From positions 3,259,001 through 3,323,000 of the forward strand of contig OY540817.1 of NCBI GenBank assembly GCA_961205875.1: a stretch of DNA of 64,000 bases, in the 5' to 3' direction. This document shows, in pieces, positions 4,800 through 56,744 of this stretch. The notes under the pieces were generated by a model, which was not told the origin of the DNA, did not search any database, and was given only the letters and a program-made list of their open reading frames with translations. Both the position numbers and the translations under genes were made by a program. The number at the start of each line of letters is the position of its first letter. Within the stretch, counting starts at the first letter, position 1. Source of the DNA: Sialis fuliginosa (Eukaryota > Arthropoda > Insecta > Megaloptera > Sialidae).

Positions 4800-5099
4800 G
4801 TACTACTTGTATGTATAGTAGGGTGGTCGTTATTTCCCAAACTGCTCGGATCCTCGCTCCTACCCCCCAAAAAGTTAGTTTAGGGCTATAAAAGAAGAAA
4901 CCCGTCGCTAAAACTCCCAACAGTAGTCGCTAAACCCTGCCCGTTTTCAAAAAACCGTTTTTTGGCATTATTACGATGTTATATTCGATAATGCGTGATA
5001 AGGACGTTATAAAATTTTCCTAAAATTTTGTGGACAATTATATTTGTAGTATATTGAAGAAACTTTGTTCCTCTATCGTTTAAAATGCTTTAAAAATTT

Positions 5100-5680
5100 T
5101 CTTTGTGAAAAATGGCCGTATCGAAATAAAACAAAAAGCATTCTAAAGTTTCAAGTTTCTAGTTTTGAGATTTTTTAGCATAATTTTTTTTGAGTTACGG
5201 TTATCGCGCAATCAAAAGAAATAGTGAAACACAAAAATTTTCCAATTTTTAAAATTTTTTTTAAGGGTCCGCGGGCTCGGGAAATTTTTTTTCAGATAAA
5301 CCAATGCATTGGTCAGTTAACTTGCTTATTCAGCTTTAATTTGTTTTTTTTTTTGGTCTCTATCAATTTTTTTTTGCCGAGATATCTGACTTTAAATGAA
5401 AAATGATTCTATTGTCTTCGATCATCAATATATCAGCAACTTATGATTAAAAAAAAAAAAAACAAATTAAAACTGAATAAGCAAGTTAACTGACCAATGC
5501 ATTGGTTTATCTGAAAAAAAATTTCCCGAGCCCGCGGACCCTTAAAAAAAATTTAAAAAATTGGAAAATTTTTGTGTCCCACTATTTCTTTTGATTGCGC
5601 GATAACCGTAATTCAAAAAAAATTATGCTAAAAAATCTCAAAACTAGAAACTTGAAGCTTTAAAATGCTTTTTGATGTAT
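5100..5680. repeat. Nested palindrome inside the left arm of the giant fold-back
   Basis: Arms at about 5126-5353 and 5452-5672 are near-perfect reverse complements (for example GGGTCCGCGGGCTCGGGAAA against TTTCCCGAGCCCGCGGACCC). The arms also resemble the right half of the element at 48205-49017, so this is an insertion of that family into one arm only. It has no mirror image on the right side. Confidence 0.8.
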
Positions 5681-5681
5681 A

Positions 5682-5820
5682 TAAAGTTAGCAGGGTACTT
5701 TTAGCAGGATCAAAAAAAAAGTATTTGTCATTTTGTCACTTTTTTGTCGCTATTTTGTCCCGCTAGAATTAATTTTGTACCTTGAGCCGTTTTCAAAAAA
5801 CTAAGACCCTGCTAACTTTA
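5682..5820. mobile_element. Small MITE, AAAGTTAGCAGGGT ends
   Basis: 139 bp bounded by TAAAGTTAGCAGGGT and ACCCTGCTAACTTTA. A third, unpaired copy of the terminal motif follows at about 5824-5838. The same unit is present inverted at 9782-9920, placing it inside the element before the arm was duplicated. Confidence 0.7.
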
Positions 5821-5918
5821 ATCTAAAGTTAGCAGGGTTCGCGATATCTCAGCCACTATTAAAGCTGGAGTAAAAATTTTTGTGTCCGAATTTGTTACTT
5901 GGGCAGTTCTTTCGGCTC

Positions 5919-5983
<65 letters not shown>

Positions 5984-6079
5984 GTTAGAAATGTAAGTAG
6001 GTACATGAAGGTTATAGCCAATGCATCCAGTACACATTTATGAGTTAATTCTGATGATAATTAGTGGCTAATTACAACT

Positions 6080-7870
6080 AAACTAAAATTGAAGAATATT
6101 CTATCTATTTTACATAAAAACTACATAAAAATTATATGATTCCGGAAACAAATTATTTCAGGCTCTCGACTATTTAATTAATAAGGTCTAAAAAAGACAA
6201 TGACACTCATTTGAGTAGGGTCTACTGAGAGTAACAAATTAAAAGTTCGTTTTAATATTTAAAATTGACGAATATTCTATCTATTTTTCATATAATCCTA
6301 CAAAAATATAATATGATTCCGGAAACATTTTATTTTCTGCTCTCGACTATTGAAATAAGGTCTAAAAAAGACAATGACACTCATTTGATTAGGGTCTGCT
6401 GAGAGTAACAAATTAAAAATTTGAATTAATATTTAAAATTGACGAATATTCTATCTATTTTTCAAATAAACCTACAAAAAAATAATATGATTCTGGAAAC
6501 AAATTATTTAATACTCTCGACTATTTAAATAAGGTCTAAAAAAGACAATGACACTCATTTGAGTAGGGTCTGCTGAGAGTAACAAATTAAAAGTTCGTTT
6601 TAATATTTAAAATTGACGAATATTCTATCTATTTTTCATATAATCCTACAAAAAAATAATATGATTCTGGAAACAAATTATTTAAGGCTCTCAATTATTT
6701 AAATAAGGTCTAAAAAAGATAATGACACACATTTGAGTAGGGTCTGCTGAGAGTAACAAATTAAAAGTTCGTTTTAATATTTAAAATTGACGAATATTCT
6801 ATCTATTTTTCATATAATCCTACAAAAAAATAATATGATTCTGGAAACAAATTATTTAAGGCTCTCAATTACTTAAATAAGGTCTAAAAAAGATAATGAC
6901 ACACATTTGAGTAGGGTCTGCTGAGAGCAACAAAATAAATGTTCGTTTTAATATTTAAAATTGACGAAAATTCTATCTATTTTACATAAAACCTCCATAA
7001 AAATAATATGATTCAGGAAACAAATTATTTAAGGCTCTCAACTATTAAAATAAGGTCTAAAAAAGACAATGACACTCATTTGATTAGGGTTTGCTGAGAG
7101 TAACAAATTAAAAGATCGTTTTAATATTTAAAATTGACGAAAATTCTATCTATTTTACATAAAACCTCCATAAAAATAATATGATTCTGGAAACAAATTA
7201 TTTAAGGCCCTCGACTATTGAAATAAGGTCTAAAAAAGACAATGACACTCATTTGTGTAGGGTCTGCTGAGAGTAACAAATTAAAAGTTCGTTTTAATAT
7301 TTAAAATTGACGAAAATTCTATCTATTTTACATAAAACCTCCATAAAAATAATATGATTCAGGAAACAAATTATGTAAGGACCTCGACTAGTGAAATAAG
7401 GTCTAAAAAAGACAATGACACTCATTTGATTAGGGTCTGCTGAGAGTAACAAATTAAAAGTTCGTTTTAATATTTAAAATTGACGAATATTCTATCTATT
7501 TAACATAAAACCTCCATAAAAATAATATGATTCCGGAAACAAATTATGTAAGGACCTCGACTATTGAAATAAGGTCTAAAAAAGACAATGACACACATTT
7601 GAGTAGGGTCTGCTGAGAGTAACAAATTAAAAGTTCGTTTTAATATTTAAAATTGACGAATATTCTATCTATTTAACATAAAACCTCCATAAAAATAATA
7701 TGATTCCGGAAACAAATTATTTCCTACTCTCAACTATTTAAATAAGGTCTAAAAAAGACAATGACACTCATTTAAGTAGGGTCTGCAGAGAGAAACAAAT
7801 TAAAAGTTCGTTTTAATATTTAAAATTGAAGAATATTCAATCTATTCTACATAAAACCTCCATAAAAAAA
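6080..7870 (+). repeat. Tandem array, ten forward 173-174 bp units
   Basis: The marker GAGTAGGGTCTGCTGAGAG (and close variants) recurs at 6213, 6387, 6561, 6735, 6909, 7082, 7255, 7428, 7601 and 7774, giving spacings of 174 then 173 bp. Each unit also has GACGAATATTCTATCTATTT and AAGGTCTAAAAAAGACAATG blocks. Differences between neighbours are few, suggesting homogenisation. Confidence 0.92.
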
Positions 7871-7879
7871 TTATGATGT

Positions 7880-9510
7880 CTTATCTCTTTTTTAAACTTT
7901 ATTTCAATAGTTGAGAGCCTTATAAAAATTTGTTTCCGGTATCAAAATATTTTTATGGAGGTTTTATATAACATAGATAAAATATTCGTCAAGTATAAAT
8001 ATGAAAAACGAACTTTTAATTTGTTACTCTCAGCAGACCCTAATAAAATGAGTGTCATTGTCTTTTTTAGACCTTATTTTAATAGTTGAGAGCCTTAAAT
8101 AATTTGTTTCCTGAATCATATTATTTTTATGGAGGTTTTATGTAAAATAGATAGAATTTTCGTCAATTTTAAATATTAAAACGAACTTTTAATTTGTTAC
8201 TCTCAGCAGACCCTAATCAAATGAGTGTCATTGTCTTTTTTAGACCTTATTTCAATAGTCGAGGGCCTTAAATAAATTGTTTCCTGAATCATATTATTTT
8301 TATGGAGGTTTTATGTAAAATAGATAGAATTTTCGTCAATTTTAAATATTAAAACGAACTTTTAATTTGTTACTCTCAGCAGACCCTACACAAATGAGTG
8401 TCATTGTCTTTTTTAGACCTTATTTCAATAGTCGAGGGCCTTAAATAATTTGTTTCCAGAATCATATTATTTTTATGGAGGTTTTATGTAAAATAGATAG
8501 AATATTCGTCAATTTTAAATATTAAAACGAACTTTTAATTTGTTACTCTCAGCAGACCCTAATCAAATGAGTGTCATTGTCTTTTTTAGACCTTATTTAA
8601 ATAGTCGTGAGCCTTAAATAATTTGTTTCCAGAATCATATTATTTTTATGGAGGTTTTATGTAAAATAGATAGAATTTTCGTCAATTTTAAATATTAAAA
8701 CGAACTTTTAATTTGTTACTCTCAGCAGACCCTACTCAAATGAGTGTCATTGTCTTTTTTAGACTTTGTTTCAATAGTCGAGAGCCTTAAATAATTTGTT
8801 TCCGGAATCATATTATTTTTTTGTAGGTTTAAATGAAAAATTGATAGAATATTCGTCAATTTTAAATATTACTTCGAACTTTTAATTTGTAACTCTCAGC
8901 AGACCCTACTCAAATGAGTGTCATTGTCTTTTTTAGACCTAATTTCAATAGTCGAGAGCAGAAAATAAAATGTTTCCGGAATCATATTATTTTTATGAAG
9001 GTTTTATGTAAAATAGATAGAATATTCTGCAATTTTAAATATTAAAACGAACTTTTAATTTGTTACTCTCAGCAGACCCTACTCAAATGAGTGTCATTGT
9101 CTTTTTTAGACCTTATTTAAATAGTTGAGAGCAGGAAATAATTTATTTCCGGAATCAAAATATTTTTATGGAGGTTTTATATAACATAGATAAAATATTC
9201 GTCAAGTATAAATATGAAAAACGAACTTTTAATTTGTTAGTCTCAGCAGACCCTACACAAATGTGTGTCATTGTCTTTTTTAAACCTTATTTAAATAATT
9301 GAGAGCCTTAAATAATTTGTTTCCAGAATCATATTATTTTTTTGTAGGATTATATGAAAAATAGATAGAATATTCGTCAATTTTAAATATTAAAACGAAC
9401 TTTTAATTTGTTACTCTCAGCAGACCCTACTCAAATGAGTGTCATTGTCTTGTTTCCGGAATCATATAATTTTTATGTAGTTTTTATGTAAAATAGATAG
9501 AATATTCTTC
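7880..9510 (-). repeat. Tandem array, nine inverted 172-175 bp units
   Basis: The reverse complement of the unit in the left array. The marker CAGCAGACCCTA recurs at 8031, 8204, 8378, 8550, 8723, 8898, 9070, 9244 and 9418. The two arrays are arranged head to head around about 7876, so together they could form a stem of more than 1.6 kb. Confidence 0.92.
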
Positions 9511-9617
9511 AATTTAAGTTTAGTTGTAATTAGCTACTAATTATCATCAGAATTAACTCATAAATGTGTACTGGATGCATTGGCTATAACCTTCATGTAC
9601 CTACTTACATTTCTAAC

Positions 9618-9683
<66 letters not shown>

Positions 9684-9781
9684 GAGCCGAAAGAACTGCC
9701 CAAGTAACAAATTCGGACACAAAAATTTTTACTCTAGCTTTAATAGTGGCTGAGATATCGCGAACCCTGCTAACTTTAGAT

Positions 9782-9920
9782 TAAAGTTAGCAGGGTCTTA
9801 GTTTTTTGAAAACGGCTCAAGGTACAAAATTAATTCTGGCGGGACAAAATAGCGACAAAAAAGTGACAAAATGACAAATACTTTTTTTTTGATCCTGCTA
9901 AAAGTACCCTGCTAACTTTA
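9782..9920. mobile_element. Small MITE, mirror copy of 5682-5820
   Basis: Bounded by AAAGTTAGCAGGGTC and ACCCTGCTAACTTTA, in inverted orientation to its partner in the left arm and almost identical to it. Confidence 0.7.
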
Positions 9921-10568
9921 TATACATTGCTTTTTGTTTTATTTCGATACGGCCATTTTTCACAAAGAAATTTTTAAATTCTTGTTCCTTTAATTGTTTG
10001 GATGAGTGTAAGTTCGTTGTTAAAAGATTACGTTTTTAAATTTTTTTTTATATTTAAACAATTATATCTCGGCACCTAAATCACTTAGAGACATCTGTAA
10101 AAAAAGAAATTAAAGGTCTTAAAGTCTACTTTAATGTAGTAACATTTGTTTAGGCCAATACAATTCGACAAATTATCAAAATTCCAAAAAAGGTTAATTT
10201 TTTGCTTTTTTCCGGATTTGGAACGTTATATTTAAGTTAAAAAATTTTTTTAAGCATCTTAAACGATAGAGGAACAAAGTTTCTTCAATAATACTACAAA
10301 TATAATTGTCCACAAAATTTTAGGAAAATTTTATAACGTCCTTATCACGCATTATCGAATATAACATCGTAATAATGCGAAAAAACGGTTTTTTGAAAAC
10401 GGGCAGGGTTTAGCGACTACTGTTGGGAGTTTTAGCGACGGGTTTCTTCTTTTATAGCCCTAAACTAACTTTTTGGGAGGTAGGAGCGAGGATCCGAGCA
10501 GTTTGGGAAATAACGACCACCCTAATGTATAGGTACCTAATAATAACAATTGATATTTTTAATCCTTA

Positions 10569-12179: not shown

Positions 12180-13304
12180 CTTGTCGATGATTGTTGACTG
12201 TTATTAACCAATTCATAGATAGTCCAGGAACATTAGGTTTTCACTGGGGAAAAATTCATTTAATCTTTATAAATAAGGTACCAAAAGTCCCCAACAATCC
12301 CATGCGAGAATATTTTTTTACAGCCCACAAAAGGTGCTAACAATTAGTTTTAAGTAAAATCTCTGTATCTATTGGTTCTATGACTAAAATAGTTATTATT
12401 AAATATAAAGTTTAGAAAATTACCTACAATAAAGATATTACAATTTTTTTCTATATAAATAATTGTTTTCGCTTATTAAGAGGGTATTCTAGTCTAAAAA
12501 TGTGAGAATATTAAATTTTTTTGCATTTTATCAATAAACAGGGTTTCAAAAATATATGTTCAAAACCCTATACCTCAATTCCAAAAACTGACGGAGTTAC
12601 GCGATTTGAAGATGATGCGTAGCATTGAATAGCTATTAGACCGAGCTCTGATAGCAAAAAATGGTACGTCATCGAACACCTCAAATTTAAAATGTGAAAA
12701 TGGTTGGAAATAATGTAAACAACATATTAGACCCGGCAGACTATTAAAAATATGTTAATTGCTATGCTTAATGAATTTTTGAAATGAGTTAAAAAAACAA
12801 TGAATATACCTTACAATACACCTGCATGAAATTTACACAGTTTATAGTAAATAATGTGCAATTTTTGAAAAAAAAATGCTGCTTAGCAATTTTTGTTAAT
12901 TACCTTGTCTGCCTTAAATTTTTATAAGTTATAATTTTCAACAAAAGTACGTCACATAACACCTTTTTTTTATTTATAAAAAAATGAAGTTTGAGATCTC
13001 CCCAATCTGTTAAAACTTTGCTGACTGAAAATTTTTGTTAATTACCTTGTCTGCCTTAAATTTTTATAAGCTATAATTTTTAACAAATGTACGTCACAAA
13101 ACACCTTTTTTTTTTTTTAAAATAAAGTTTGGGATCACCTCTATTTATTAAAACTTGTCTGCCTAACAATTTTTATTAATTAATACCTGCAAACTTTTAT
13201 TTTGCCTGTACTATTTTCATAGAATTTCGATAAATGGTAATATTCAAGTTTCCGAGCAAAGAAATATCTACTACCTGCAAGTCTTATCTCAAATCCCAAT
13301 AGAT

Positions 13305-13672
13305 CAGCGGTTCCCAACTTTCATTATATTTATTTGTGGAGATCAGTTATCAAGTGCTCGGTGCTTAATTAACTTTTCACACAGCTTATGTTTTTTGTTG
13401 GGAGAAGGGGGTGTGCCACTGTATCTTTTTTCGCCATTATAAATTTTTTTACGCGTACCCCTGAGAGTACGCGTATTCCAGGCAGGATATTCATCTATTA
13501 GGATTTTGGAATTCACGACAATGATTTATTTAAATTTTAAATAAATAATTGTCCTGAATTAACAATCAAATCATTAAATTTTATAAAATTAATATTTCTA
13601 TATATTATATATTCATCGGGAGCCGGATGTAAATCTTTGAAGGGCCGGCGCGCAGGTCCTATTTTGGTGATC
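13305..13672. mobile_element. hAT-like element or remnant
   Basis: Starts CAGCGGTTCCCAACTT and ends GGTGATCGCTG, imperfectly inverted, with GGGCCGGCGCGCAGG near the right end as in the hAT element at 46651-47003. Flanking 8-mers do not match, so it may be old. The inner motif TACGCGTACCCCTGAGAGTA is a short hairpin. Confidence 0.55.
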
Positions 13673-13776
13673 GCTGGTCTAGGGTCTAGACTCTAGACTC
13701 TAGGGTAAACCATATTTGTTTTATTTGAAATAATTATGAATGTTTATTATTATTTTTAACTATTCTGATACATTAA

Positions 13777-15045
13777 CCCTCCGTTAGGCGCGCGTACTAT
13801 TGTCGCGAGTTTAGGCGCGCGGCATACATGCGTAGACCATTTTCAAAAGGTCCTATAATAGCTGAATTTGATTTTTATTTCATATGAGTTGAACTATGAT
13901 GTTTATTGATGTATACTTTTGTATACAACACATAATTTTTATTAAAATTTTTATATATTTTGTTGTGGAAAAATAAACAAAATTAAATATCATTTTTAGA
14001 CGTTTTATTATCATAAATTATATATTAATTTAAAAAATAAACATAATATATCTAAATAAAAATATGATAATGAAAATATGTTAATTATGATTAATGTATA
14101 GAAATACAAACAAATTGCAATGAAAATGTTGCAAAGAAAAGTATGAAAATGGCGATCAAAATTGGATATTTTTATTTAGGTAAAAATGCAATGCGAATAT
14201 ATCTCATATGGTCTTTTTATACATATTTGCCGAATTATTGCGATTTTTAGAATAAATATTGCACCGTCCGACATAATCACCTAGCCTATTTGCAGGAAAG
14301 TTGAAGAAAATTTCCCGAGGGGGGAGGGGTGGGGTGATGACGTAGACCTTATCGCATTGACCAAAAAAAAAGATCACTAGGTATTTTTTTTTCACTTTTC
14401 GCTACTTTGGGCAGGCATGACCATGTGTAGACTTTCAATGACCAAAACAAATATCAATTAGCTTTAGCCCCCCCCCCCCCCCAAAAAAAAAACTTTCCCA
14501 AGTACATTATAGAATAGAATATTACATCAATTTTCTCGTTCCCTGAAAGGGGGTGGGGGGGGTAAGTACCCCATTAGCCCCCTCTCCTTCCTATGAACAC
14601 CCATACCTATAATGGTGTGGCGTTCTGCAATTATGAAAATCCTGTACGCTCGGCATTGTCCTAAACTCTTTGTGGGGCTTTAAATACTCCCACGCAAAGT
14701 TTTTTTGGGTTAAACATGTCTATATTTTTGAAAATAGTAAAATATAATACACGCCCATAAAATAAAACCACTATTTCTTACAAAAATGATGAAAATAAAA
14801 AATCGAAGCACTACAAAAATAGTTACACCGTTAGGCGCGCGGCATACATGCGTAGACCAGCCGTTTTTGATTCGCTATAACTCAAAACACCGGGCTAAAA
14901 AATTGCAACTAAGTAACTAATAATATATGAGGATATGTAATCGACAGCTACTCAAAAGGGCACGTGCTAAAATAAAGCGTGGTTTGTATTGTTACGGTTT
15001 TTATAGTAGTGGTCTACGCATGTACGCCACGCGCCTAACGGAGGG
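13777..15045. mobile_element. Non-autonomous piggyBac-like element, 1269 bp
   Basis: Exact TTAA on both sides (13773-13776, 15046-15049). Inverted ends are CCCTCCGTTAGGCGCG and CGCGCCTAACGGAGGG. TTAA target sites and CCC-starting ends are typical of piggyBac. A second copy of the subterminal block (GGCGCGCGGCATACATGCGT) occurs at 13812-13831 and 14834-14853, and its inverse near the right end. C-runs at about 14468 and G-runs at about 14550 are internal. No transposase. Confidence 0.85.
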
Positions 15046-15279
15046 TTAAAAAAATACTATAGTTCCAATAAATAATTGATTGAATCTAGCAAATTATTTA
15101 TTTAAATCGTTGCAATGAAATATTTTACAAGCTCAATCAAATATCTGATAAATTCGATATAATTTATTATTGATTTAAAAAAAGAATAAAAAATAGAATA
15201 TTATTTAAAAGACATAAATTATAGATAATAATATTCTCTGCAGCATGTCTCAAATTAATTTTTTACTTACGTAATTACT

Positions 15280-15500
15280 AAACCGGAAACGGATGTTTAC
15301 TCTTGTCATTTTTTTTTTTAGATTTGTTTTCAAAATAGGAGGTTTTCTTCCCGGACAAAATTTAATCTTAAATATAAAATTTCACCCTTCTACGATTTGT
15401 CGTATTTGAGTTACTGCGCTTACAAACAGACAGACACACAGACATCATAGCGAAAATAATCAGAATAGATTCAGGGAAGGTATATTCTTTTTCTAAATTT
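15280..15500 (+). repeat. Dispersed repeat family B, copy 2
   Basis: Holds TTCACCCTTCTACGATTTGT, GAGTTACTGCGCTTACA and the CAGACAGACACACAGACATC stretch. The same order of blocks is found at 57340-57550. Confidence 0.65.
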
Positions 15501-17010
15501 CGATAACCCTTCACCAAAATTTCGATGTGACAATGGAGAGGAATTTATTTTTTTGGTCGTCACATCGAGGCCCATAACTTTTTTAATTTTTAATATTTTT
15601 CAATAAAAATTGGTATTCAATAAGTTGAATATATATTTAATAAGATGTCTACTACCTGATCGCAAAATAATATGGTATACATATATAAAATTCTCAAACA
15701 TTGACAATCACATCACAGTGGCTTTCCCCCTTAAGACTGACCTGGTAAAAAACATTTTTTCGATAAAAAAACTCTCTTAATATATAAAAGAGATGTAAAA
15801 CCTCGATTGATAATTAAAAAAAAAAAAAAAAGTTGTCAACGGTTATATTACATTTTTTTTTAACAAAAAAATGTGGTCGTAGCGCTTAAAAAATGAAGAC
15901 TGGCAAAGTAAAAAACGTTTTTTTTGCTGGCAGCAAAATTTTAATGCAATAAGAAGTCTCAAAGTTAATGTTAGAAAAAAAATTAAGATGGTGTTTTTTC
16001 ACGGCCTGCGTATAAACTATTTAAACGAAAAAAAATCATTGGCACGGCGCTTAAAAATTAAGACTGACATAGTAAAAAACATTTTTTCGATGGCACACAA
16101 ATTTATAAGCATAGAGGAGGTCTCAAACTTTATTTAAAAAAAAAAAGAAAAAAGGTGTTATGTCACGCCAACGGTTGAGCCGGACATCCATCTCATGCAT
16201 GGATGCTGCACATTCAAAATTAAGGCAGACAAGGTAATTAACAAAAATTTCCAGTCAGCAAAGTTTTAACAGATTGGGGAGATCTCAAACTTCATTTTTT
16301 TATAAATAAAAAAAAGGTGTTATGTGACGTACTTTTGTTGAAAATTATAACTTATAAAAATTTAAGGCAGACAAGGTAATTAACAAAAATTGCTAAGCAG
16401 CATTTTTTTTTCAAAAATTGCACATTATTTACTATAAACTGTGTAAATTTCATGCAGGTGTTTTGTAAGGTATATTCATTGTTTTTTTAACTCATTTCAA
16501 AAATTCATTAAGCATAGCAATTAACATATTTTTAATAGTCTGCCGGGTCTAATATGTTGTTTACATTATTTCCAACCATTTTCACATTTTAAATTTGAGG
16601 TGTTCGATGACGTACCATTTTTTGCTATCAGAGCTCGGTCTAATATGTATAAACATTGTACGCGTTTTTCGCGAAACTGAAAACTGAAAATGCCTACTAT
16701 AATATCACAAGATCTATTGAACCGATTGACTTCAAATTTGCTGTGTATATACCTGTACACATGTTATTACCACCGTTAGCAGAATTGAGTCAAAAACATC
16801 AGTCTCCTGGCATGTCACTCTCGGAAGTTAAAGTTAGCAGACTAAATAAGTATTGTTTCTGAATGTATAAAACAAATTTATACTGCAGTAGTAATCTATA
16901 AAAAGTTGTAAGATTTTATTGTAGGTAATTTTCTAAACTTTATATTTGATAATAACTGTTTTAGTCATAGAACCAATAGATACAGAGATATTTACTTAAA
17001 ACTAATTGTT

Positions 17011-18005: not shown

Positions 18006-18707
18006 CGGGAAAAAATTTCAGATCTGAAGTGATCTCGGTTGATCTTCATTTTGGAACAAATCAGATCTTTGTAGATAAATAAACTTTTGTCTACCTAACC
18101 TTAAATAACAAATTAATACACATATACTATATAGAAACCTTGTTTATAATTTAATCAATTAAAAAAAAATTGTACAGAAACGTATTGAATGATATTTGAG
18201 GCCCGTGTATTAAATTAATAAATAAATTCACAACACACCCCCTGTCACAGATGAAGGGTTGTAATTGGTCTCATTCGATCCAGCGGGAAAAATACTTCGG
18301 GATACTAGGTGAATTTTTCTCTGTTTCGCTACTTATGGTATTCATTATAGAAAATCGTAAATATCTCGACTCCTGTGCTAGATAAAGGGTTGTTTTGCCC
18401 CCCACACTCTTAGTATCCCGAAGTATTTTTCCCGCTGGATCGAATGAGACCAATTACAACCCTTCATCTGTGACAGGGGGTCAGTTGTGAATTTATTTAT
18501 TAATTTAATACACGGGTCTCAAATATCATTCAATACGTTTCTGTACAATTTTTTTTTTAATTGATTAAATTATAAACAAGGTTTCTATATAGGTAGTATA
18601 TGTGTATTTGTTATTTAAGGTAGACAAAAGTTTATTTATTTACAAAGATCTGATTTGTTCCAAAATGAAGATCAACCGAGATCACTTCAGATCTGAAATT
18701 TTGCCCG
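18006..18707. mobile_element. Near-perfect palindromic element, 702 bp
   Basis: The two halves are inverted copies from CGGGAAAAAATTTCAGATCT at the left to AGATCTGAAATTTTGCCCG at the right, meeting near 18355. The stem is interrupted only by small differences. A solo end of the same family lies at 26218-26281. The minus-strand 60-codon frame in the centre is a by-product. No duplication could be assigned. Confidence 0.8.
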
Positions 18708-20769: not shown

Positions 20770-20776
20770 GGGTCAA

Positions 20777-20844
20777 GGTATATAAAGATAAGGTAGTCTC
20801 AATAGCTCCTTGACCAATCAGCGTTGGCGCGGGAATTGACGTCA
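20777..20844 (-). promoter_or_regulatory. CRE / E2F-like / CCAAT / TATA cluster, left arm
   Basis: Mirror of the right arm: TGACGTCA 20837-20844, GCGCGGGAA 20827-20835, CCAAT 20814-20818, TATATAAAG 20779-20787. It would point leftward out of the element. Confidence 0.35.
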
Positions 20845-21172
20845 TCCGGGGGATATATTCAAATGTTATACATTTTTTAATAGAATATCAATTACAAAAA
20901 ATTTCTTTATTTATTCTTGTTTTCGTATTTTTTTATATTTTAACAACACATACAATCAAATAAGTACAGATTCAACATTGCAAAATCATAAAAAGCTGTC
21001 AGAATCAAATAACGTATTGCCAACTTAAGAATAGTAAAAATGACACTTCCCGAATAGACCAAATTGTCTGTGATAGCTTTTTTTTATGATTTTGCAATGT
21101 CGAATTTGTACTTCTTTGAGTGTAATTGATATGCTATTAAAAAATGTATGGCATTTAAATATATCCCCCGAG

Positions 21173-21238
21173 TGACGTCAATTCCCGCGCGAACGCTGAT
21201 TGGCCAAAGAGCTATTGAGACTACCTTGTCTTTATATA
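21173..21238 (+). promoter_or_regulatory. CRE / E2F-like / CCAAT / TATA cluster, right arm
   Basis: TGACGTCA at 21173-21180, TTCCCGCGC at 21182-21190, ATTGG (inverted CCAAT) at 21199-21203, TTTATATA at 21231-21238. The order would point transcription rightward, out of the element. Function is inferred from motifs only. Confidence 0.35.
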
Positions 21239-21480
21239 CCTTGGGTCAGGGAATATTGATGTTATATGGGGCCGTCTATAAAAAAACGTACCCAAAAAAG
21301 GGGTGGGGGGAGAAACTGCCTGGCGTCATAGACATAGAACATCTGATTCGAAAACAGAGACGTGTCAAAAGAAAGAGATGGAAACAGGTTTGGAATATAC
21401 TTGTCCTTTTTTTAAACAGGAGTGTAACTATTCATTCTTGGCCCCGAACATTAAAAATATTTATAGATACATATATATAA

Positions 21481-27409: not shown

Positions 27410-28250
27410 GTACTAAAAAAACATCTGCCAAGTAAATGCACAGTGCTTCCTCGTGCTAAATTCACTAAAACCGATAGTGTTCAGATAAATTGCCTGGCAT
27501 TGGTTAACCATTTAATTTTTATACAAATTTTACTAAAAAATCTTAGTTTGAAATTTTTCTTAAAACGCACCTGAATATTTTTTCATATATTTTTAATTTT
27601 TTGGTAATTTCAATCTAAATCTATGCAAATGTCAAAATGACATTTAAAACGTCAAAGTGACATTTTAAACGCCAAAATGACATTTTAAACGTCAAAATGA
27701 CATTTAATATATCCAATCAAATATCAATTTAGAAAAACAAAACACGAATTTTTTAAATAAATTGAGATAAATCTTTGTAAGGGAATACTTTACAGCAAAC
27801 GTAGTAGACCCATATTATAGGAAATTTAATGCTCTACAAAAAATATCCTATACAATTTTCTCGTAACATGTGTCGTTCTTGAGATATCTTGAAAAAGGAA
27901 ATATTTTGGGGTGTCACCCCTCCCCCTTACACACGATTTTGATGATTTTGAAATGGGACCGTCCTCAAACCAAACCCAACCATCCGACCAAGTTTCAATA
28001 ATATCGGTTCAGTGGTTCATGAGTTATGCGTGTGACAAGGATTCAGGGGACAGACGGACGGACGGACGGACGGACGGACGGACACACGGACAGACAGACA
28101 GACACGGAACGAAAAGTGTTTGTCTTGACGTGAAACAGATAAATCAATTTAAAATTTTGAAATTGGAGAACTTTTTTTTTGTCTCAATCTGAAACGATCA
28201 CATAACATCTCGTATCTTCGATAATAATCTGAGGAAGCAAAAGCTCGGGA
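27410..28250 (+). repeat. Dispersed repeat family A, copy 4 (full-length reference)
   Basis: Best complete copy: AAGTAAATGCACAGTGCTTC head, four or so units of the type TGACATTTTAAACGTCAAAA (27630-27710), GATTTTGATGATTTTGAAAT, GGTTCAGTGGTTCATGAG, then seven GACG units passing to GACA units (28049-28105), and the CGATCACATAACATCTCGTA end block. Confidence 0.8.
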
Positions 28251-28289
28251 AAATAAATTTTTCGGTAATTAATTATTAATTATTGGTAC

Positions 28290-29035
28290 TATTGCTTCCT
28301 CGCAATATCGAAGATACGAGAAGCTATGTGATCGTTTCAGATTGAGACAAAAAAAAAGTTCTCCAATTTCAAAATTTTAAATTTATTTATCCGTTTCACG
28401 TCAAGACAAACACTTTTCGTTCCGTGTCTGTCTGTCTGTCCGTGTGTCCGTCCGTCCGTCTGTCCCCTGAATCCTTGTCACACGCATAACTCAAGAACCA
28501 CTGAACCGATATTATTGAAACTTGGTCGGATGGTTGGGTTTGGTTTGAGGACGGTCCCATTTCAAAATCATTAAAATCGTGTGTAAGGGGGAGGGGTGAC
28601 ACCCCAAAATATTTATTTTTTCAAGATATCTCAAGAACGACACATGTTACGAGAAAATTTTATAGAATATTTTTTGTAGAGAATTAAATTTCCTATAATA
28701 TGGGTCTGCTACGTTTGTTGTAAAATATTCCCTTACAAAGATTTATCTAAATTAATTTTAAAAATTCGTGTTTTGTTTTTCTAAATTGGTATTTGATTGG
28801 ATATATTAAGTGTCATTTTGACGTTTTAAATGTCACTTTGGCGTTTTAAATGTCACTTTGACGTTTTAAATGTCATTTTGACATTTGCATAAATTTAGAT
28901 TTAGATTGAAATTGTCAAAAAATTAAAAATATATGAAAAAATATTCAGGTGCGTTTTAAGAAAAATTTCGAAGATTTTTTAGTAAAATTTGTATAAAAAT
29001 TAAATGGTTAACCAATGCCAGGCAATTTATCTGAA
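28290..29035 (-). repeat. Dispersed repeat family A, copy 5
   Basis: Inverted relative to copy 4, 40 bp away, so the two form a large imperfect palindrome. All blocks present. Confidence 0.8.
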
Positions 29036-29052
29036 CACTATCGGTTTTATTT

Positions 29053-29880
29053 TTGCTTCCTCGCAATATTGAAGATACGAGAAGCTTTGTGATCGTTTCG
29101 GATTGAGACAAAAAAAATGTTCTCCAATTTCAAAATTTCCGTTTCACGTCAAGACAAACACTTTTCGTTCCATGTCTGTCTGTCTGTCCGTCCGTCCGTC
29201 TGTGTGTGTCCGTCTGTCCCCTGAATCCTTGTCACATGCATAACTCATGAACCACTGAACCGATATTATTGAAACTTGGTCGGATGGTTGGGTGTGGCTT
29301 GAGGACGGTCCCATTTCAAAATCATCAAAATCGTGTGTAAGGGCGAGGGGTGACATCTCAAAATATTATTTTTTTCAGATATCTCTAGAACGACACATGT
29401 TACGTAAAAATTTTATAGATTATTTTTTGTAGAGCATTAAATTTCCTATATTCTACAACGTTTGTTGTAAAATATTCCCTTACAAAGATTTATCTCAACT
29501 TATTTTAAAAATTCGTGTTTGTTTTTTCTAAATTGATATTTGCTTGGATATATTAAATGTCATTTTGACGTTTTAAATGTCATTTTGGCGTTTTAAATAT
29601 CATTTTGACGTTTTAAATGTCATGTTGACATTTGCATTTTAGATTTATATTGAAATTGTCAAAAAATTAAAAATATATGAAAAAATATTCAAGTGCGTTT
29701 TATGAAAAATTTCGAACTAATATTTTTTAGTAAAATTGTATAAAAATTAATTGGTTAACCAATTCCAGGCAATTTATGTAAACACTATCGGTTTTTTATT
29801 TAAATTGTTGAATAATAATTAACTACCTTTGGTGAATTTAGCACGAGGAAGCACTGTGCATTTATTTGGCAGCTATCAAT
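29053..29880 (-). repeat. Dispersed repeat family A, copy 6
   Basis: Same orientation as copy 5 and ending in TTAGCACGAGGAAGCACTGT (29838-29857), the inverted head block. Tandem insertion of copies 5 and 6 hints at site preference. Confidence 0.8.
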
Positions 29881-38174: not shown

Positions 38175-39113
38175 GGGTACGCGTCAACTCGGCGCATCCA
38201 ATTCGGCGATAGTCAACTCGGCGCCGGTCAACTCGGCGATGGCCAAACTCGGCGACGGTCAACTCGGCGATAAAAATTAATATTAGTAAATATATTTTTA
38301 ACTAAAATTTGCCCGCGGGTTCATCAGCGTGTATTATTTATAATTTTTTTTCGATCCGTATTTTAATGCGAGGGATGGGGTATGGATGAAAAAATGTAAT
38401 GATTATTTTTTTATTAAATACTATACATAAAAGTAAACAGTGTCATGTAAATACTTTACATTACTTGATTAGTTGTTTTAATGAGTGACCATTTCTATAT
38501 TTTTAATCGAACTATATAATTTTGAACTAGCCACATATTTTCATCTACAATTTTTGATTTGTGACTTTTTTTATTTAAAATCTACATATTATAATTTGCA
38601 ACAATCATTTTTTTGAAATTAAACTTATATTTCAGATTATACAAAATTATGAAAAAACGATGAATATAGCATATAATTTAATAGTAATTTCAAAAACGTA
38701 TTTAGTTTTAATGAAATTTGGTGACAAATTTTCTCATTGTCATAAAATAACAAAAAAAATGTGCTTTTTTTATTCAAATTGAACAATAAACTATTACAGC
38801 TGCTTAATATTTAATTGTTTACAAAAAGTTGCATTCAGATATAACAAACATTATAAAAATTGCTAACTCGACCAATATATTTGTATTTTTTGGCAGAAAT
38901 ACTGTTCTTATTTTTTCCATTCGTGCTTCATACCACCATTCCTCCCGTTAAAATACGGGCCGATAAAACTATTTTATACATAATACACGCGGGTGAAGCC
39001 GCGGGCAAATTTTAGTTAAAAAATATATTTACTAATAATTATTATTATCGACGAGTTGACCGTCGCCGAGTTTGACCGTCGTCGAGTTGACCATCGCCGA
39101 GTTGACCTGTCCC
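38175..39113. mobile_element. FoldBack-like element with tandem-repeat termini, 939 bp
   Basis: Perfect 9 bp duplication GTATGAAAT (38166-38174, 39114-39122). Both termini are short tandem arrays of a unit near 15 bp, GTCAACTCGGCGATG (six units at 38181-38272, about four inverted at 39050-39106). Next comes an inner inverted pair around AACTAAAATTTGCCCGCGG. Long inverted ends made of tandem units plus a 9 bp duplication is the layout of Drosophila FoldBack elements, which are MULE relatives. A GGG tip with 8-9 bp duplication would also fit Merlin. Confidence 0.85.
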
Positions 39114-39609: not shown

Positions 39610-39669
39610 TAATTACAAAAATAAATTGCCCTGATCGGCACAAGACTTTTGTTATACATAATTATACTA

Positions 39670-41287
39670 GTGCGAGAGCTGATGACATATTTTTCTGCCC
39701 CATCTGAGCACTAGGCAGACTTACGGAAATCGTTTATTCATGTGTTGTACATCATGGGAAAAATAGTCCCAACCCCCACACCCGGGGATAAAGGGGTTTA
39801 ATTCCTTAGTGAACATGTAAAGAAAAAGTGCATTTTTGCCCCATGTGAGCACTAATAAAATCACCACAGGGAGTTAGTTTATGAAAAGTTAGATAGTGAA
39901 AGTGCAATGGGCAGACGCGTAGGGTGGGGATAAGGGGCAGGCAGACGCACTCAAAGATGCAATATTTTTTTTGAAAATTGCCCCATTTGAGCATTGATGA
40001 ATTTTGGAGGGATGGCAGTTTTTGATCTGTAGATGATCGAAAAAACAAAGGCAGACGCGTAGGATGGAGATAAGGGACGGGCAGACGCGCTCAAACATGT
40101 AATTTTTTTAATGAAAATTGTCTCATTTGAGCATTGATGAATTTTTTGAAGGATGACAGATTTTGATCTGTAGATGACCGAAAAAACACAGGCAGACGCG
40201 TAGTGTGGGGATAAGGGATGGGCAGACGCAATTGAAAGTGTTATCCTATTTTTTTAACTGGGTTGTTTTGTAATTATTTTTTTTGCTTGAAGTTGTCCGC
40301 AATGACTCTCTGGATAACACATTAGTTCTTTGAAAACACATTTGTTTACCCCCAACTAACACGAAAAGGAAAAATTTCATTAATATGAAAATCTAAAAAA
40401 AAATATTAAACGTGTAAAAAAGTAGGCGCTGAAATTTTTTTTTATTATATTTTGATTATATTCTTCTTATTCTGTGTAATAAACAAAAAACAAAAAATAA
40501 ATAAATAAAACAGAATTCTTTGGGATTCGAACTCAGGACCTTGGGACTTTGAGTTTTATAAATTTACAAATTTCAGCAAAACGGTACTTAACATCAAAAA
40601 AACTACAAGAGACATATTTTCTTCTTATTTAGATGATTCTAAAACATATTTGATATCATCGGTGGAATATTTAGTACCGAAGATACAATGTTTTTAAAAA
40701 TTTTACAACCCTTTGCCACTTTCAATTGCGTCTGCCCTCCCCTTATCCCCACACTACGCGTCTGCCTGTGTTTTTTCGGTCATCTACAGATCAAAATCTG
40801 TCATCCTTCAAAAAATTCATCAATGCTCAAATGAGACAATTTTCATTAAAAAAATTACATGTTTGAGCGCGTCTGTCCGTCCCTTATCCCCATCCTACGC
40901 GTCTGCCTTTGTTTTTTCGATCATCTACAGATCAAAAACTGCCATCCCTCCAAAATTCATCAATGCTCAAATGGGGCAATTTTCAAAAAAAATATTGCAT
41001 CTTTGAGTGCGTCTGCCTGCCCCTTATCCCCACCCTACGCGTCTGCCCATTGCACTTTCACTATCTAACTTTTCATAAACTAACTCCCTGTGGTGATTTT
41101 ATTAGTGCTCACATGGGGCAAAAATGCACTTTTTCTTTACATGTTCACTAAGGAATTAAACCCCTTTATCCCCGGGTGTGGGGGTTGGGACTATTTTTCC
41201 CATGATGTACAACACATGAATAAACGATTTCCGTAAGTCTGCCTAGTGCTCAGATGGGGCAGAAAAATATGTCATCAGCTCTCGCAC
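39670..41287. mobile_element. Near-perfect fold-back, 1618 bp
   Basis: Ends GTGCGAGAGCTGATGACAT and ATGTCATCAGCTCTCGCAC are exact inverses, next to TA on both sides (39668-39669, 41288-41289). The arms are about 580 bp each and nearly identical: an 80-residue minus-strand frame at 39806-40048 and a plus-strand frame at 40909-41151 translate identically. Each arm holds three tandem units of 140-141 bp marked by GCAGACGCGTAG (39911, 40051, 40192). The spacer (about 40260-40690) is from another repeat, including a tRNA-like GGGATTCGAACTC block. Confidence 0.9.
40505..40690 (-). repeat. Repeat with tRNA-type B-box word
   Basis: GGGATTCGAACTCAGGAC at about 40519-40536 is, on the minus strand, GAGTTCGAATCCC, which matches a pol III B box. 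It is followed by AAAACGGTACTTAACATC and TTCTAAAACATATTTGATAT blocks shared with the palindrome at 56745-57338. No A box recognised, so a SINE or tRNA origin is not shown. Confidence 0.5.
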
Positions 41288-41289
41288 TA

Positions 41290-47003: not shown

Positions 47004-48204
47004 TCCTAAAGGATCTACTTTTATAAAATTTTGCAATTAATAAAAAGTATTTAGAATTAGCTAGACAATATAAATTTTTTTTAGAAAATGACTAATTTTA
47101 TTAAAAAAATACCCAACCAAAAAATGTCACCAAATGTTTTTTGTATTCATTGACTAATTCGTAACACTTTTTATTCTTTGCAAATTTTTCTAAAAGTTGA
47201 TCTTTTAGGAGATAAAAATAAAAAATAAAATCATGTAATAAACATAAAATGTTTGGATACCCCCTGGAGCAGAAATTACGGATTTTCGTGGGTAGCGCCC
47301 TTTATAACTTTTGATCAGCATATTTTTAATTATCATTTCCACAACAAATTTCAACAAAAAGGCAAAATTCATTGTTTTTTTGCGGGATCCTTTCTTTTGC
47401 CCTACTGCTGAAACGGCTCATTTGCTGACATGGGTTTATTGACAAAAAGCGATTGTTTTAATGTCCTCGGCAACTCCTGAAAGATTGTCAGTATGTTTAC
47501 GAGACACGCTGTATATGCATTTCACATAAATGTGCATAATTTATTATTAAAATTTCGTTGACTATTGATTTTAATAAATATAGCTACCTACTGGTAATTT
47601 ATAAATGAATACAATAGCTATTACGATAATTAAATTAAAATTAATGTTCAAACAGCAAATAATTGAAAAATTTAAATAGTATATTTATTAATTAAAATTC
47701 GTGTGTATATTTTGTTATTAGTTATAAAATATTATAATTTACACAGATTTTTAAATATAATATGTATATTTACCGGATGTTGGAATTGATCTATTTTAGG
47801 TGTTTGCTATGATCTATAATTATAATTTATATAAATAAAATTATTTAGGTATGTAAATCTTTTCTATTTTTTTATTAATTCTAATATAGGTAAGTACCTA
47901 TAAAGGCTTTTTTCTAAAAAAAAAGTTTTTTCAATTCATTATTTATTTATTTTAGCTTATTTGAACTGAAATCGTAATAATTTCAGTAAAATGCTTTTGT
48001 GGAATGTTATAATAGGCATGATGCCTAATTTTTAAAAACTATTTTATGATGATCTTACGTATCTCCTATTTCCAAAAAAATACTTGTTTCTGCAGAAAAT
48101 AAAGGTTTAATCATAAAAATTAACCATTTTAAAACTATTTTTAAATTAAACGCTAAAACTCTCGCAGGTGTCATGGCGCCTATGTAAATGCTCCTTGTCA
48201 ACTA

Positions 48205-49017
48205 CACTCATCCAAACAATTAAAGGAACAAGAATTTAAACATATTTTTTGGGTCTTTTTTGAAGTGCTGTATCTTTGTGAAAAATGGTCGTATCGAAAT
48301 AAAACAAAAAGCATTTTAAAGCGTCAAGTTTCTAGTTTCGGAAAAACGGTTCGATGGATCAATTTCAAAATTTACAGGACTGTTGTGGGTACACTAAGCT
48401 GTAAAGTCACCTGGCAACATTAGTCTTCCCATCAATATTTGTAAAGTAGCGATAGATTTACTAAAAGAACATAAAAGGTCATTTTTTTGTACTTTTTCAA
48501 ACTAATGGTGAGGGTAAAAAAAAATTTTTTTCTAATAAAGTCATCAAAGGGTCTTGTAGGAAATTTATCAAGTTTTTAAAACTGCCCTTAAATTTACTAT
48601 TTAATTATTAGTTGCTGATATATTGATCATCGAAGACAAAAGAATCATTTTTCATTTAAAGTCAGATATCTCGGCAAAAAAAAATTGAGAGAGACAAAAA
48701 AAAAACCAAATTAAAGCTGAATAAACAAGTTAACTGACCAATGCATTGATTTAACTGGAAAAAAATTTCCCAAGCCCGAGGACCCTTAAAAAAATTTAAA
48801 AAATTGGAAAATTTTTGTGTCTCACTATTTCTTTTGATTGCGCGTTAACCGTAACTCAAAAAAAATTATGCTAAAAAATCTCAAAACTAGAAACTTGACG
48901 CTTTAAAATGCTTTTTGTTTTATTTCGATACGACCATTTTTCACAAAGATACAGCACTTCAAAAAACACCCAAAAAAAATGTTTAAATTCTTGTTCCTTT
49001 AATTGTTTGGATGAGTA
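48205..49017. mobile_element. TA-flanked fold-back, 813 bp
   Basis: Ends CACTCATCCAAACAATTAAA and its inverse TTTAATTGTTTGGATGAGTA, with TA on both sides. The arms carry TTTGTGAAAAATGGTCGTAT and AAACAAAAAGCATTTTAAAG. The right half is longer than the left. The same arm sequences occur inside the giant fold-back (5100-5680, 9928-10015), so the two share history. Confidence 0.8.
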
Positions 49018-49454
49018 TATAATAAATCCTTGTTCCAACGCTAATGTTTCTCGGTTTTACTTTTGGTAACACAAAATTGAGCAATTTGATAATTTAAAAC
49101 CACAAAATAGTTTATAAACAGTGCAGTTATTAATGAAACAAAAATTACGTTTACGTAGCCATGACGTCATCCACTCTGACTGGTGTTTTATCAAACATGG
49201 CGGATTGCTGTATTTTGCGTTTTTATTTTAACACAAATCATTTTAATCTCGCTATTAATATAAAAATAAATACATTTTTTAGAATCTTTTTAACTTATTT
49301 CATTATTTAAAATCATAATTTCAGTGATATTTTGTTAAAATGGTCAGTAAAATCAATATTTTTGATATCGGTGAATTATTTGTGAAAATGGTTAATTTTA
49401 TATCTAAAAACACAAAAGTTCAATTTTTAATGCGAAGACCTTTTTTGCTCTGCA

Positions 49455-54541: not shown

Positions 54542-54912
54542 TATTTAAGAAAAAAATAATTGGTGAATTAATATAATTATTTATGAAAACATCTGCTATG
54601 GGAGCTACGGGACTTTCTTATACGTAATTTTGACAGTGGACAGTGTACGTGATTCTTATTAAAAAAAACATATTTCTGACAAACTAATAAAAGATAGAAT
54701 AAAATGAATGAGGCATTATGTATGTATCAAATGAATTTTTTAGAACGTAATAACTTAACTGAAAACGGATGTTTACTCTTGTCAATTCCACTCACGGTGC
54801 TCTGGAAGCCAACTTTAATAAAAAAATTGATTACCTCTGATTTTTTTTTGTACAATTCAATTCTTTAGTATTTAAGGAACATTTTAAGACCAAAAATAAA
54901 AAAATCGCCTTG

Positions 54913-56619
54913 GGGTCAATCCATATGAACTGGTCCAGCACTGGTTGCTCGATCATTCTAAAAAAAAATGATTTTTTGTGTGTAATTACCCTAACATGTT
55001 GGTAGTTCGAAACGACCATTATTTTAATTTTATTGTTTTTTGTTTTTGCGTAACGGCCATATTTGTTCTACAGGTCGCAGCATTTTTTGTACATTAAAGG
55101 GTTCGCGGAAACTAAAATATCTCAGCTTCTATCAAACCTCTCAACACGGGATTAAAAGCAAATTGTTCAGAATAAAACGGGCTACAAGATTACTTCTAGA
55201 CATTTTCACCTAAATGTTATCCTAAAGGGTGAAATTTCAGCCATAATTCTTAGTTCTATTTTTGAAAAAATCCCATTTTCAAGGGGATGTTTTTGCAAGA
55301 AGGGGAAAAGTAAACAAGTCAAATTATTTTTTACAAATAGGTGGGTACTAGTTGTATTCACACACCAAAGTTCAACTCTGAGACTTACCCCCTTTTATTT
55401 TAAAAAATTCTCAAAATTTGAAAATTCGAGAAAATGGCACTTTTCAAAGCTAAATAACTCTGGTGGGGGACCAGATAAAAATCTGAAATTTTAGCCCATA
55501 ATAGTACTATATAATGGTATTATGTACCAAAAATTTTGAGATTGAGATTTGACTACAAGCAGTGGTATTGCAACCACAAAAATGCATGTTTCAATGAGCG
55601 TATACATGTTGTGATTTTGTTTCAATAATAATTAAAACATGTTATATCTTTGTTATGAGTTACTTTAAGTTATTATATGTGTTATAAATTTTTAAAGCTG
55701 ACCTAATTTTCTATCTAAAAATAAAATATATATAGGGTGTAACCTTTGAAAAACAAAAGTTGACATCATTTCCGGTTCAACCGGAAGTGACAGAACATAA
55801 AAAATGAGTTTTTAAAAACATTCAGAAAAAATACAATTTTTTTCTTCATTCAAGCATTCTTCTATTTCCAAGAAGAAAAAAGATAGTAATAGATATTATA
55901 TTAATGTTGACACTCTGTATTAACATATGAACTCCTATTGAATATTGTGGTTGCAATATCACTGCCTGTAGTTAAATCTCAATCTCAAAATTTTTGGTAC
56001 ATAATACCATTATGTAGTACTATTGTGGGCTAAAATTTCAGATTTTTATCTGGTCCCCCACCAGAGTTATTTAGCTTTGAAAAGTACCATTTTCTCGAAT
56101 TTTCAAATTTTGAGAATTTTTTAAAATAAAGGGGGGTAAGTCTCAGAGTTGAACTTTGGTGTGTGAATACAACTAGTACCCACCTATTTGTAAAAAATAA
56201 TTTGACTTGTTTACTTTTCCCCTTCTTGCAAAAACATCCCCTTGAAAATGGGATTTTAAAAAAATAGAACTAAGAATTAAAGCTGAAATTTCACCCTTTA
56301 GGATAACATTTAGGTGAAAATGTCCAGAAGTAATCTTGTAGCCCATTTTATTCTGAACAATTTGCTTTTAATCCCGTGTTGAGAGGTTTGATAGAAGCTG
56401 AGATATTTTAGTTTCCGCGAACCCTTTAATGTACAAAAAATGCTGCGACCTGTAGAACAAATATGGCCGTTACGCAGAAACAAAAAACAATAAAATTAAA
56501 ATAATGGTCGTTTCGAACTACCAACATGTTAGGGTAATTACACACAAAAAATCAATTATTTTTAGAATGGCCAAGCAACTATTTAATTTAATTTTGGACC
56601 ATTTCATATGGATTGACCC
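54913..56619. mobile_element. Fold-back element, 1707 bp
   Basis: Ends GGGTCAATCCATATGAACTG and CATTTCATATGGATTGACCC are inverted. CTTG occurs on both sides (54909-54912, 56620-56623) and may be a 4 bp duplication. The arms match for about 660 bp, for example TTAAAGGGTTCGCGGAAACT with its inverse at about 56410-56430. The spacer (about 55580-55960) includes TTCCGGTTCAACCGGAA, a short palindrome. A solo end is at 34026. Confidence 0.85.
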
Positions 56620-56744
56620 CTTGGCGCTTTTTTAATAATTCATAAAATAAGAAACCGTATGCAGAATTATAACGCGAATTTTATCTAGCTTTTATTGTTT
56701 ATTAACTTTTTACTCTATATAATAGACAAACAAATAAAAAAAAA

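Follow-up and report, generated by a model that had tools for sequence, protein, structure and literature searches.

A Foldback-type transposon nested within another fold-back element in the genome of Sialis fuliginosa

Introduction

The founding architecture of fold-back transposons is reportedly that of Foldback/FB of Drosophila melanogaster, with inverted repeats that contain internal tandem repeats and with 9-bp duplications; its units are said to be short (about 31 bp, unlike the 173-bp units described below) and some copies to carry the NOF gene. Here, a fold-back structure of 5.7 kb was analysed that lies at positions 4819-10524 of a 64,000-nucleotide stretch of the Sialis fuliginosa genome (assembly GCA_961205875.1, contig OY540817.1, positions 3,259,001 to 3,323,000; referred to as the window) and that had been taken in a preliminary description for one layered element of undescribed architecture. 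The palindrome very probably consists of two non-autonomous DNA transposons, a younger core of 4,253 bp nested inside an older outer fold-back. The seemingly unique layered element thus resolves into a nest of two families, as empty sites of the outer family show.

The core was compared with Tetris and with Foldback/FB by description and not by sequence. The core is closest in plan to Tetris, a Foldback transposon of D. virilis (PMC4079207), and closest in duplication length to Tm1, a Mutator/Foldback family of root-knot nematodes (PMC3169594). In both Tetris and the core, the long inverted repeats consist of a flanking domain and, next to it, an AT-rich tandem array (with a unit of about 220 bp in Tetris), the number of units varies, and neither conserved open frames nor an autonomous partner have been found (PMC4079207). 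The duplications of Tetris are 8-10 bp long, and from this length its authors propose Mutator (PMC4079207). Unlike Tetris, the core has a unit of 173 bp, a T tract reaching 80 nt between two flanking domains and no middle domain, the arrays meeting directly in four full copies. Tetris shares a 37-bp stretch between unit and flanking domain (PMC4079207), whereas none was found in the core, where a search of both flanking domains for a motif that also occurs in the 173-bp unit was negative (score 22 vs 21.2 ± 2.3, with 78 of 200 base-shuffles equal or better).

Tm1 resembles the core in its composite inverted repeats, variable number of tandem motifs and 9-bp duplications, and has members like miniature inverted-repeat transposable elements (MITEs); unlike those of the core, its motif units are mostly 14 bp long, and some members encode a Phantom-type Mutator-like element (MULE) transposase, of which none was found for the core (PMC3169594). 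Very long fold-back arms are shared with Galileo of Drosophila, which differs from the core in duplications of 7-8 bp, a GTATTAC preference and a P-superfamily transposase (PMC4168063). The longest Galileo copy, without the transposase segment, measures 9,021 bp, with arms of 4,246 and 4,680 bp and tandem repeats of about 140 bp, and unlike the core it also contains pieces of other transposons in its arms (PMC4168063). This copy provides a precedent for the size of the core, and the architecture, initially taken for undescribed, is likewise on record, since Tetris, Tm1 and Galileo have the same plan. The inverted repeats of arthropod MULEs reach 1,193 bp (PMC13359780), and Rehavkus has 9-bp duplications, a minisatellite near one end, ahead of the 3' end, and a transposase with a PHD finger (PMC6446971); both encode transposase, whereas the core family has no known coding member. 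No published account of the core family was noticed in literature searches, and a search with the end sequences of both families returned as sole match a paper on miR-20 that, judging from the title, has no connection with them. Rfam gave nothing on the window at the gathering threshold.

Two nested elements

The nesting was observed directly, in the ends and duplications of both families and in the empty site found elsewhere. The outer element has ends TAGGGTGGTCGTTATT, terminal inverted repeats (285 bp in the window copy; 4819-5103 against 10239-10524, 97.6% identical over 286 columns) and a perfect 8-bp duplication, ATGTATAG, at 4811-4818 and 10525-10532, all in agreement with the preliminary description. 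Inside it, the core starts with ATGTATATAAAGTTAGCAGGG and finishes with its reverse complement, and TGCTTTTTG borders it on both sides. When the core and one TGCTTTTTG were removed from the window copy of the outer element, the resulting skeleton could be aligned through the insertion point with 15 of the 20 outer copies fetched from the genome; a single TGCTTTTTG marks the site in 14 of them, and L076 has TGCTTTTTT in its place. Among the remaining five copies, L073, L077 and L085 are without the region and L087 and L088 represent a diverged lineage. Because the empty site is uninterrupted in these 15 copies, the core was inserted into a pre-existing outer element, and the ATGTATAG duplication consequently dates the outer element only and not the core. 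The short fold-back (about 1.4 kb here) would have inserted first, giving rise to the ATGTATAG duplication, and the Foldback-type core would later have entered its interior, giving rise to the 9-bp duplication TGCTTTTTG. No stop-to-stop frame that overlaps the region exceeds 92 aa, and the one of this length extends into the flank, which bears out the earlier view that the structure is non-autonomous.

The features of the region are as follows (window coordinates, strand).

4811-4818, plus: 8-bp target-site duplication ATGTATAG of the outer element, left (sequence and family check)
4819-5103, plus: left terminal inverted repeat of the outer element (97.6% over 286 columns vs 10239-10524)
5126-5680, no strand: hairpin in the outer interior (self-inverted 87.6%; in full-length outer copies; the alignment runs about 6 bp beyond the core insertion site)
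5666-5674, plus: 9-bp target-site duplication TGCTTTTTG of the core, left
5675-9927, no strand: core fold-back transposon, 4,253 bp (palindrome 90.8%)
5675-5921, plus: left flanking domain of the core, 247 bp, terminal sequence ATGTATATAAAGTTAGCAGGG
5682-5695, plus: 14-bp motif TAAAGTTAGCAGGG, terminal copy, left end
5807-5820, minus: 14-bp motif TAAAGTTAGCAGGG, subterminal, inverted, left end
5824-5837, plus: 14-bp motif TAAAGTTAGCAGGG, subterminal, direct, head-to-head with the copy at 5807-5820
5922-5981, plus: T60 homopolymer
5982-6083, plus: second flanking domain, 102 bp
6084-7877, plus: left array of 173-bp units (10.3 copies; 10 full units and a partial)
7878-7885, no strand: palindrome centre, where a partial unit (model 2-63) meets a partial unit (model 3-119)
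7886-9515, minus: right array of 173-bp units (8 full units and partials; 9.0 copies over 7886-9455)
9620-9680, minus: A61 homopolymer (T61 on the minus strand)
9681-9927, minus: right flanking domain of the core
9765-9778, minus: 14-bp motif TAAAGTTAGCAGGG, subterminal, right end
9782-9795, plus: 14-bp motif TAAAGTTAGCAGGG, subterminal, right end
9907-9920, minus: 14-bp motif TAAAGTTAGCAGGG, terminal copy, right end
9928-9936, plus: 9-bp target-site duplication TGCTTTTTG of the core, right
9937-10238, no strand: right part of the interior of the outer element
10239-10524, minus: right terminal inverted repeat of the outer element (97.6% vs left repeat)
10525-10532, plus: 8-bp target-site duplication ATGTATAG of the outer element, right

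In the window copy the two flanking domains of the core differ at 2 of 247 positions, compared with 97.6% identity of the outer inverted repeats. Over 12 copies, the left and right flanking domains of a core differ on average by 1.42 positions, against 3.55 in 264 comparisons between copies, and the left and right core ends are identical in 6 of the 12. Since the core flanking domains are more alike than the outer inverted repeats, the core appears to have spread more recently than the outer element, provided that inverted repeats do not correct each other.

That the whole 5.7 kb structure is a single composite with layered arms, transposed as one unit as initially proposed, would agree with the perfect ATGTATAG at the outer ends, but it is very improbable: the core, with its own ends and 9-bp duplication, occurs alone at other sites with other flanks, and no other facing pair near 5.7 kb exists among the outer-end matches listed (about 100 of 494). 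Transposition of the composite was rejected on account of the empty sites in 15 of the 20 fetched outer copies. A satellite array, or a local inverted duplication merely resembling a transposon, would fit the 834 matches obtained with the 173-bp unit; such an origin deserves very little credence, because the units sit within elements with fixed ends and 9-bp duplications at many sites, and a first look at the matches gave only 49 candidate regions, of which the best 30 were scored and the flanking domains were not checked region by region. Long palindromes and 60-nt homopolymers are in general hard to assemble. Fold-back artefacts at the level of reads are also on record (PMC12870357), and an artefact of assembly or of long reads is nevertheless scarcely conceivable here, as it is expected to yield near-identical arms whereas these arms differ by about 9%, and similar elements with matching duplications lie at other sites with different flanks.

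The preliminary description had also named a small MITE between the terminal repeats and the homopolymer, without giving its position, and two segments could be meant. The symmetrical candidate, a 139-bp segment between inverted 14-bp motifs (5682-5820) with its mirror copy, does exist; it is part of the end of the core, and a separate MITE is not favoured there, as matches to the core end span nearly the whole of the 246-base query (best 40 of 116 candidates scored). The other candidate, the hairpin at 5126-5680, is present on the left side only, and its reading as a separately inserted MITE is not favoured either, because this sequence forms the middle of full-length outer copies. No need was seen for a third insertion in order to explain the structure.

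The core family

The core is a new family of the known Foldback kind and not a new kind of element. Its long inverted repeats cover most of the element (5675-9927 aligned with its own reverse complement at 90.8% over 4,317 columns, in line with the kilobase symmetry described before), its arms carry tandem repeats in variable number (four copies), and it moves as a unit with target-site duplications, which are perfect and 9 bp long in 16 of the 18 pairs of core ends for which both flanks were read. A search for the core ends, allowing at most 2 mismatches, gave 132 matches in the 392-Mb genome compared with 3 for the reversed control. Among the matches listed, about 100 of the 132, there were at least 33 facing pairs, 31 of them spanning 0.9-9.5 kb and two spanning 17.4 and 24 kb, the latter on C1. 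A well-replicated Foldback family is thereby added, with sixteen perfect 9-bp duplications and pairs up to 9.5 kb apart. The 17.4 kb pair at C3:33342340-33359788 was considered as a possible autonomous partner; in the 10 kb read from it (L098), similarity to the core extends to about base 1762, and no stop-to-stop frame of at least 100 aa is present. The left end of the window copy is identical over 246 bases, and its first unit over 279 bases, to copies at C5:30.93 Mb and C3:10.63 Mb. A sister lineage has the ends ACGTATATAAAGTTAGCGGGG; the three copies read are fold-backs, all three with 9-bp duplications.

The short copies L093 and L094 were considered as non-palindromic ancestors of the core and dropped from that role. 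Their junctions with the right end lie at different places (flanking-domain positions 188 and 230), which suggests that each arose by an internal deletion of its own, and an inverted piece of the unit persists in L095. At L095 (C14:2370620-2372590), the flanks are near-inverted and not direct repeats (ATGTCACAC / GTGTGACAG), and unrelated sequence lies between the arms.

Each arm of the core is composed, from the outside inwards, of the 247-bp flanking domain, the T tract, the second flanking domain (about 100 bp) and the array of 173-bp units, and the two arrays abut almost without a spacer. The homopolymers of about 60 nt (T60 and A61) and the tandem units meeting head to head (10.3 and 9.0 copies) were thus correctly recognised at the outset. 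Four full-length copies have 10/8, 6/5, 12/5 and 3/3 full units per arm, and the centre junction is of one kind in all four, a partial unit ending at about model position 63 against one at about 111-121, in either orientation. The 14-bp motif TAAAGTTAGCAGGG occupies positions 8-21 of each core end and recurs further in as a head-to-head pair (about 133-146 and 150-163). Six exact sites are present in each of the window copy (WIN), L089, L090, L096 and L095; in L094 there are likewise six, with 13 or 14 matches, and in L093 four, whereas 50 base-shuffles of the window core gave a mean of 0.08 hits of at least 12/14. In the three sister-lineage copies the terminus is kept. What is new in the core is the triple 14-bp motif per end, in the five best-kept copies, together with a centre junction that stays fixed despite varying array length.

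The arrangement of the motifs points to putative transposase-binding sites, and the core transposase would bind TAAAGTTAGCAGGG at the termini as well as in the internal head-to-head pair, which offers an internal-motif hypothesis for the recognition of Foldback ends. The 173-bp arrays would grow and shrink by unequal exchange while the ends and the centre junction stay constant, and some exchange of units may take place between the arms of a core. Units from opposite arms are up to 99.4% identical in the window copy, and the identity of opposite-arm vs same-arm units is 91.4 vs 90.8 in WIN and 91.5 vs 90.7 in L089, with a mean of 90.3 for units from different core copies. Taken as a whole, it is a tentative and rather unlikely proposition that the core lineage has one terminal and two internal head-to-head motif sites, that its near-loopless palindromes are kept by exchange between arms around a fixed centre, and that a continuous palindrome, up to 9.5 kb long, consequently transposes and spreads. 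The core family could serve the study of how long palindromes persist.

The T tract measures 54-80 nt in 20 and 13-24 nt in 8 of 30 fetched ends (L009-L038, including the two of the window); the eight shorter tracts include one interrupted run (L023), and two of the 30 were left unmeasured as the run starts elsewhere. Among ten further loci (L089-L098), the tracts are 60 and 72 nt in L090 and 6-21 nt in L089, L093, L094, L095 and L096, and four loci are without an anchor. In the three closely matching copies mentioned above (window, C5:30.93 Mb and C3:10.63 Mb) the lengths are 60, 18 and 65 nt. Expansion of the long T tracts may have accompanied the recent burst.

The outer family

The outer 16-mer, with at most 2 mismatches, matched 494 times in the genome compared with 101 times for the reversed control. 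The 20 fetched copies are 684-2501 bp long, and perfect 8-bp duplications were found in 18 of them, so that other copies with the same ends and duplications, proposed beforehand as a check, do exist; the longer ones are near-palindromes of about 1.7 kb. Sequence related to the hairpin also occurs at window 48203-49019. The consensus of hAT duplications is nTnnnnAn, and among the 18 perfect duplications position 2 fits in 17 and position 7 in all 18. Like hAT-type MITEs as generally known, the outer element combines such 8-bp duplications with the absence of long open frames (stop-to-stop frames do not exceed 107 aa in the 2.3-2.5 kb copies L075, L087 and L088), whereas its near-palindromic longer copies exceed the usual length of MITEs and no hAT transposase is linked to the family. 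Matches to the hAT dimerisation domain are abundant (150, from the best 150 of 613 candidates scored) and were not compared place by place with the outer ends. Judging from duplication length, the outer element was most likely moved in trans by a hAT-like transposase.

Candidate enzymes for the core

Both families would be moved in trans, by cut and paste, by transposases encoded elsewhere; for the core this is suggested because nothing inside it encodes a transposase. As the core duplications are 9 bp long, the enzyme was probably, with some reserve, Mutator-like: duplications of this length are usual for MULEs and are also given for Rehavkus in a table of PMC6446971. An enzyme outside Mutator, whether of P/Galileo type, hAT, Merlin type or of another kind, is a serious candidate and stands at somewhat less than an even chance. 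It gains from the occurrence of the Foldback architecture in more than one superfamily, Galileo belonging to the P superfamily, from the fact that no MULE is linked to core ends, and from the 466-bp element of the window with ends AGGTATATAAAG, which has a 7-bp border repeat. It loses from the fact that 16 of 18 core pairs, like the three tested sister-lineage pairs, have a duplication of exactly 9 bp, and a P/Galileo-type enzyme in particular fits poorly, since Galileo duplications are 7-8 bp long (PMC4168063) whereas the 16 read here are 9 bp and none has a GTATTAC-type target.

Several observations weigh against the account of the two families given above. A matching duplication is absent in 2 of the 18 core pairs (L093 and L095) and in 2 of the 20 outer copies (L080 and L085). 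No transposase is linked to either family, so that the superfamily of both is assigned from duplication length; none of the 10 MULE-domain matches in the genome lies inside a facing pair of core ends, among about 100 of the 132 ends listed, and the two of these 10 MULE copies that were read with their flanks (L099 and L100) carry no core-family ends. The age order assumes that no mutual correction takes place between the two inverted repeats within one element. None of the three sister-lineage copies read has the internal motif pair, which is also reduced in L093 and may therefore be dispensable for movement. Finally, opposite-arm units are not more alike than same-arm units in L090 (91.4 vs 92.5) and L096 (87.8 vs 88.0), and the support for an exchange of units across the arms is modest and suggestive only.

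In the MULE copies L099 (C7:18229500-18234000) and L100 (C8:1322300-1326800), the MULE-domain frame is uninterrupted and 482 and 479 aa long, respectively. They are copies of one MULE, 94.8% identical over 2,888 columns, with tandem repeats of 126-134 bp downstream of the frame and no clear inverted ends seen.

Other inverted-repeat structures in the window

Inverted-repeat structures are common in the 64-kb window, and 15 more were considered. A scan of these 15 for border duplications gave a usable repeat for one only, at 20774-21243; that of 18029-18685 was discarded because it falls inside the repeat itself. The element at 20774-21243 (466 bp) has the 7-bp border repeat TGGGTCA and ends, AGGTATATAAAG, that resemble ATGTATATAAAG of the core, and it may be a distant relative of the core. 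At 39668-41289, a fold-back has 573-bp arms that are 99.3% identical, each with 140-bp tandem units head to head, and 15-bp units GTCAACTCGGCGACA and their reverse complement (38183-38272 and 39048-39107) flank a possible fold-back. The stretch 27466-29795 holds a palindrome of 1.58 kb (91.3%), additional inverted copies up to 29795 and short arrays whose units are of the AAACGTCAAAATGACATTTA and GTCTGTCC types. Two structures, at 54896-56636 and 58938-60948, have inverted repeats of about 690 bp (94.5% identical) and about 670 bp (95.5% identical), respectively, and a 4 kb structure at 12634-16645 has 430-bp inverted repeats that are 99.3% identical.

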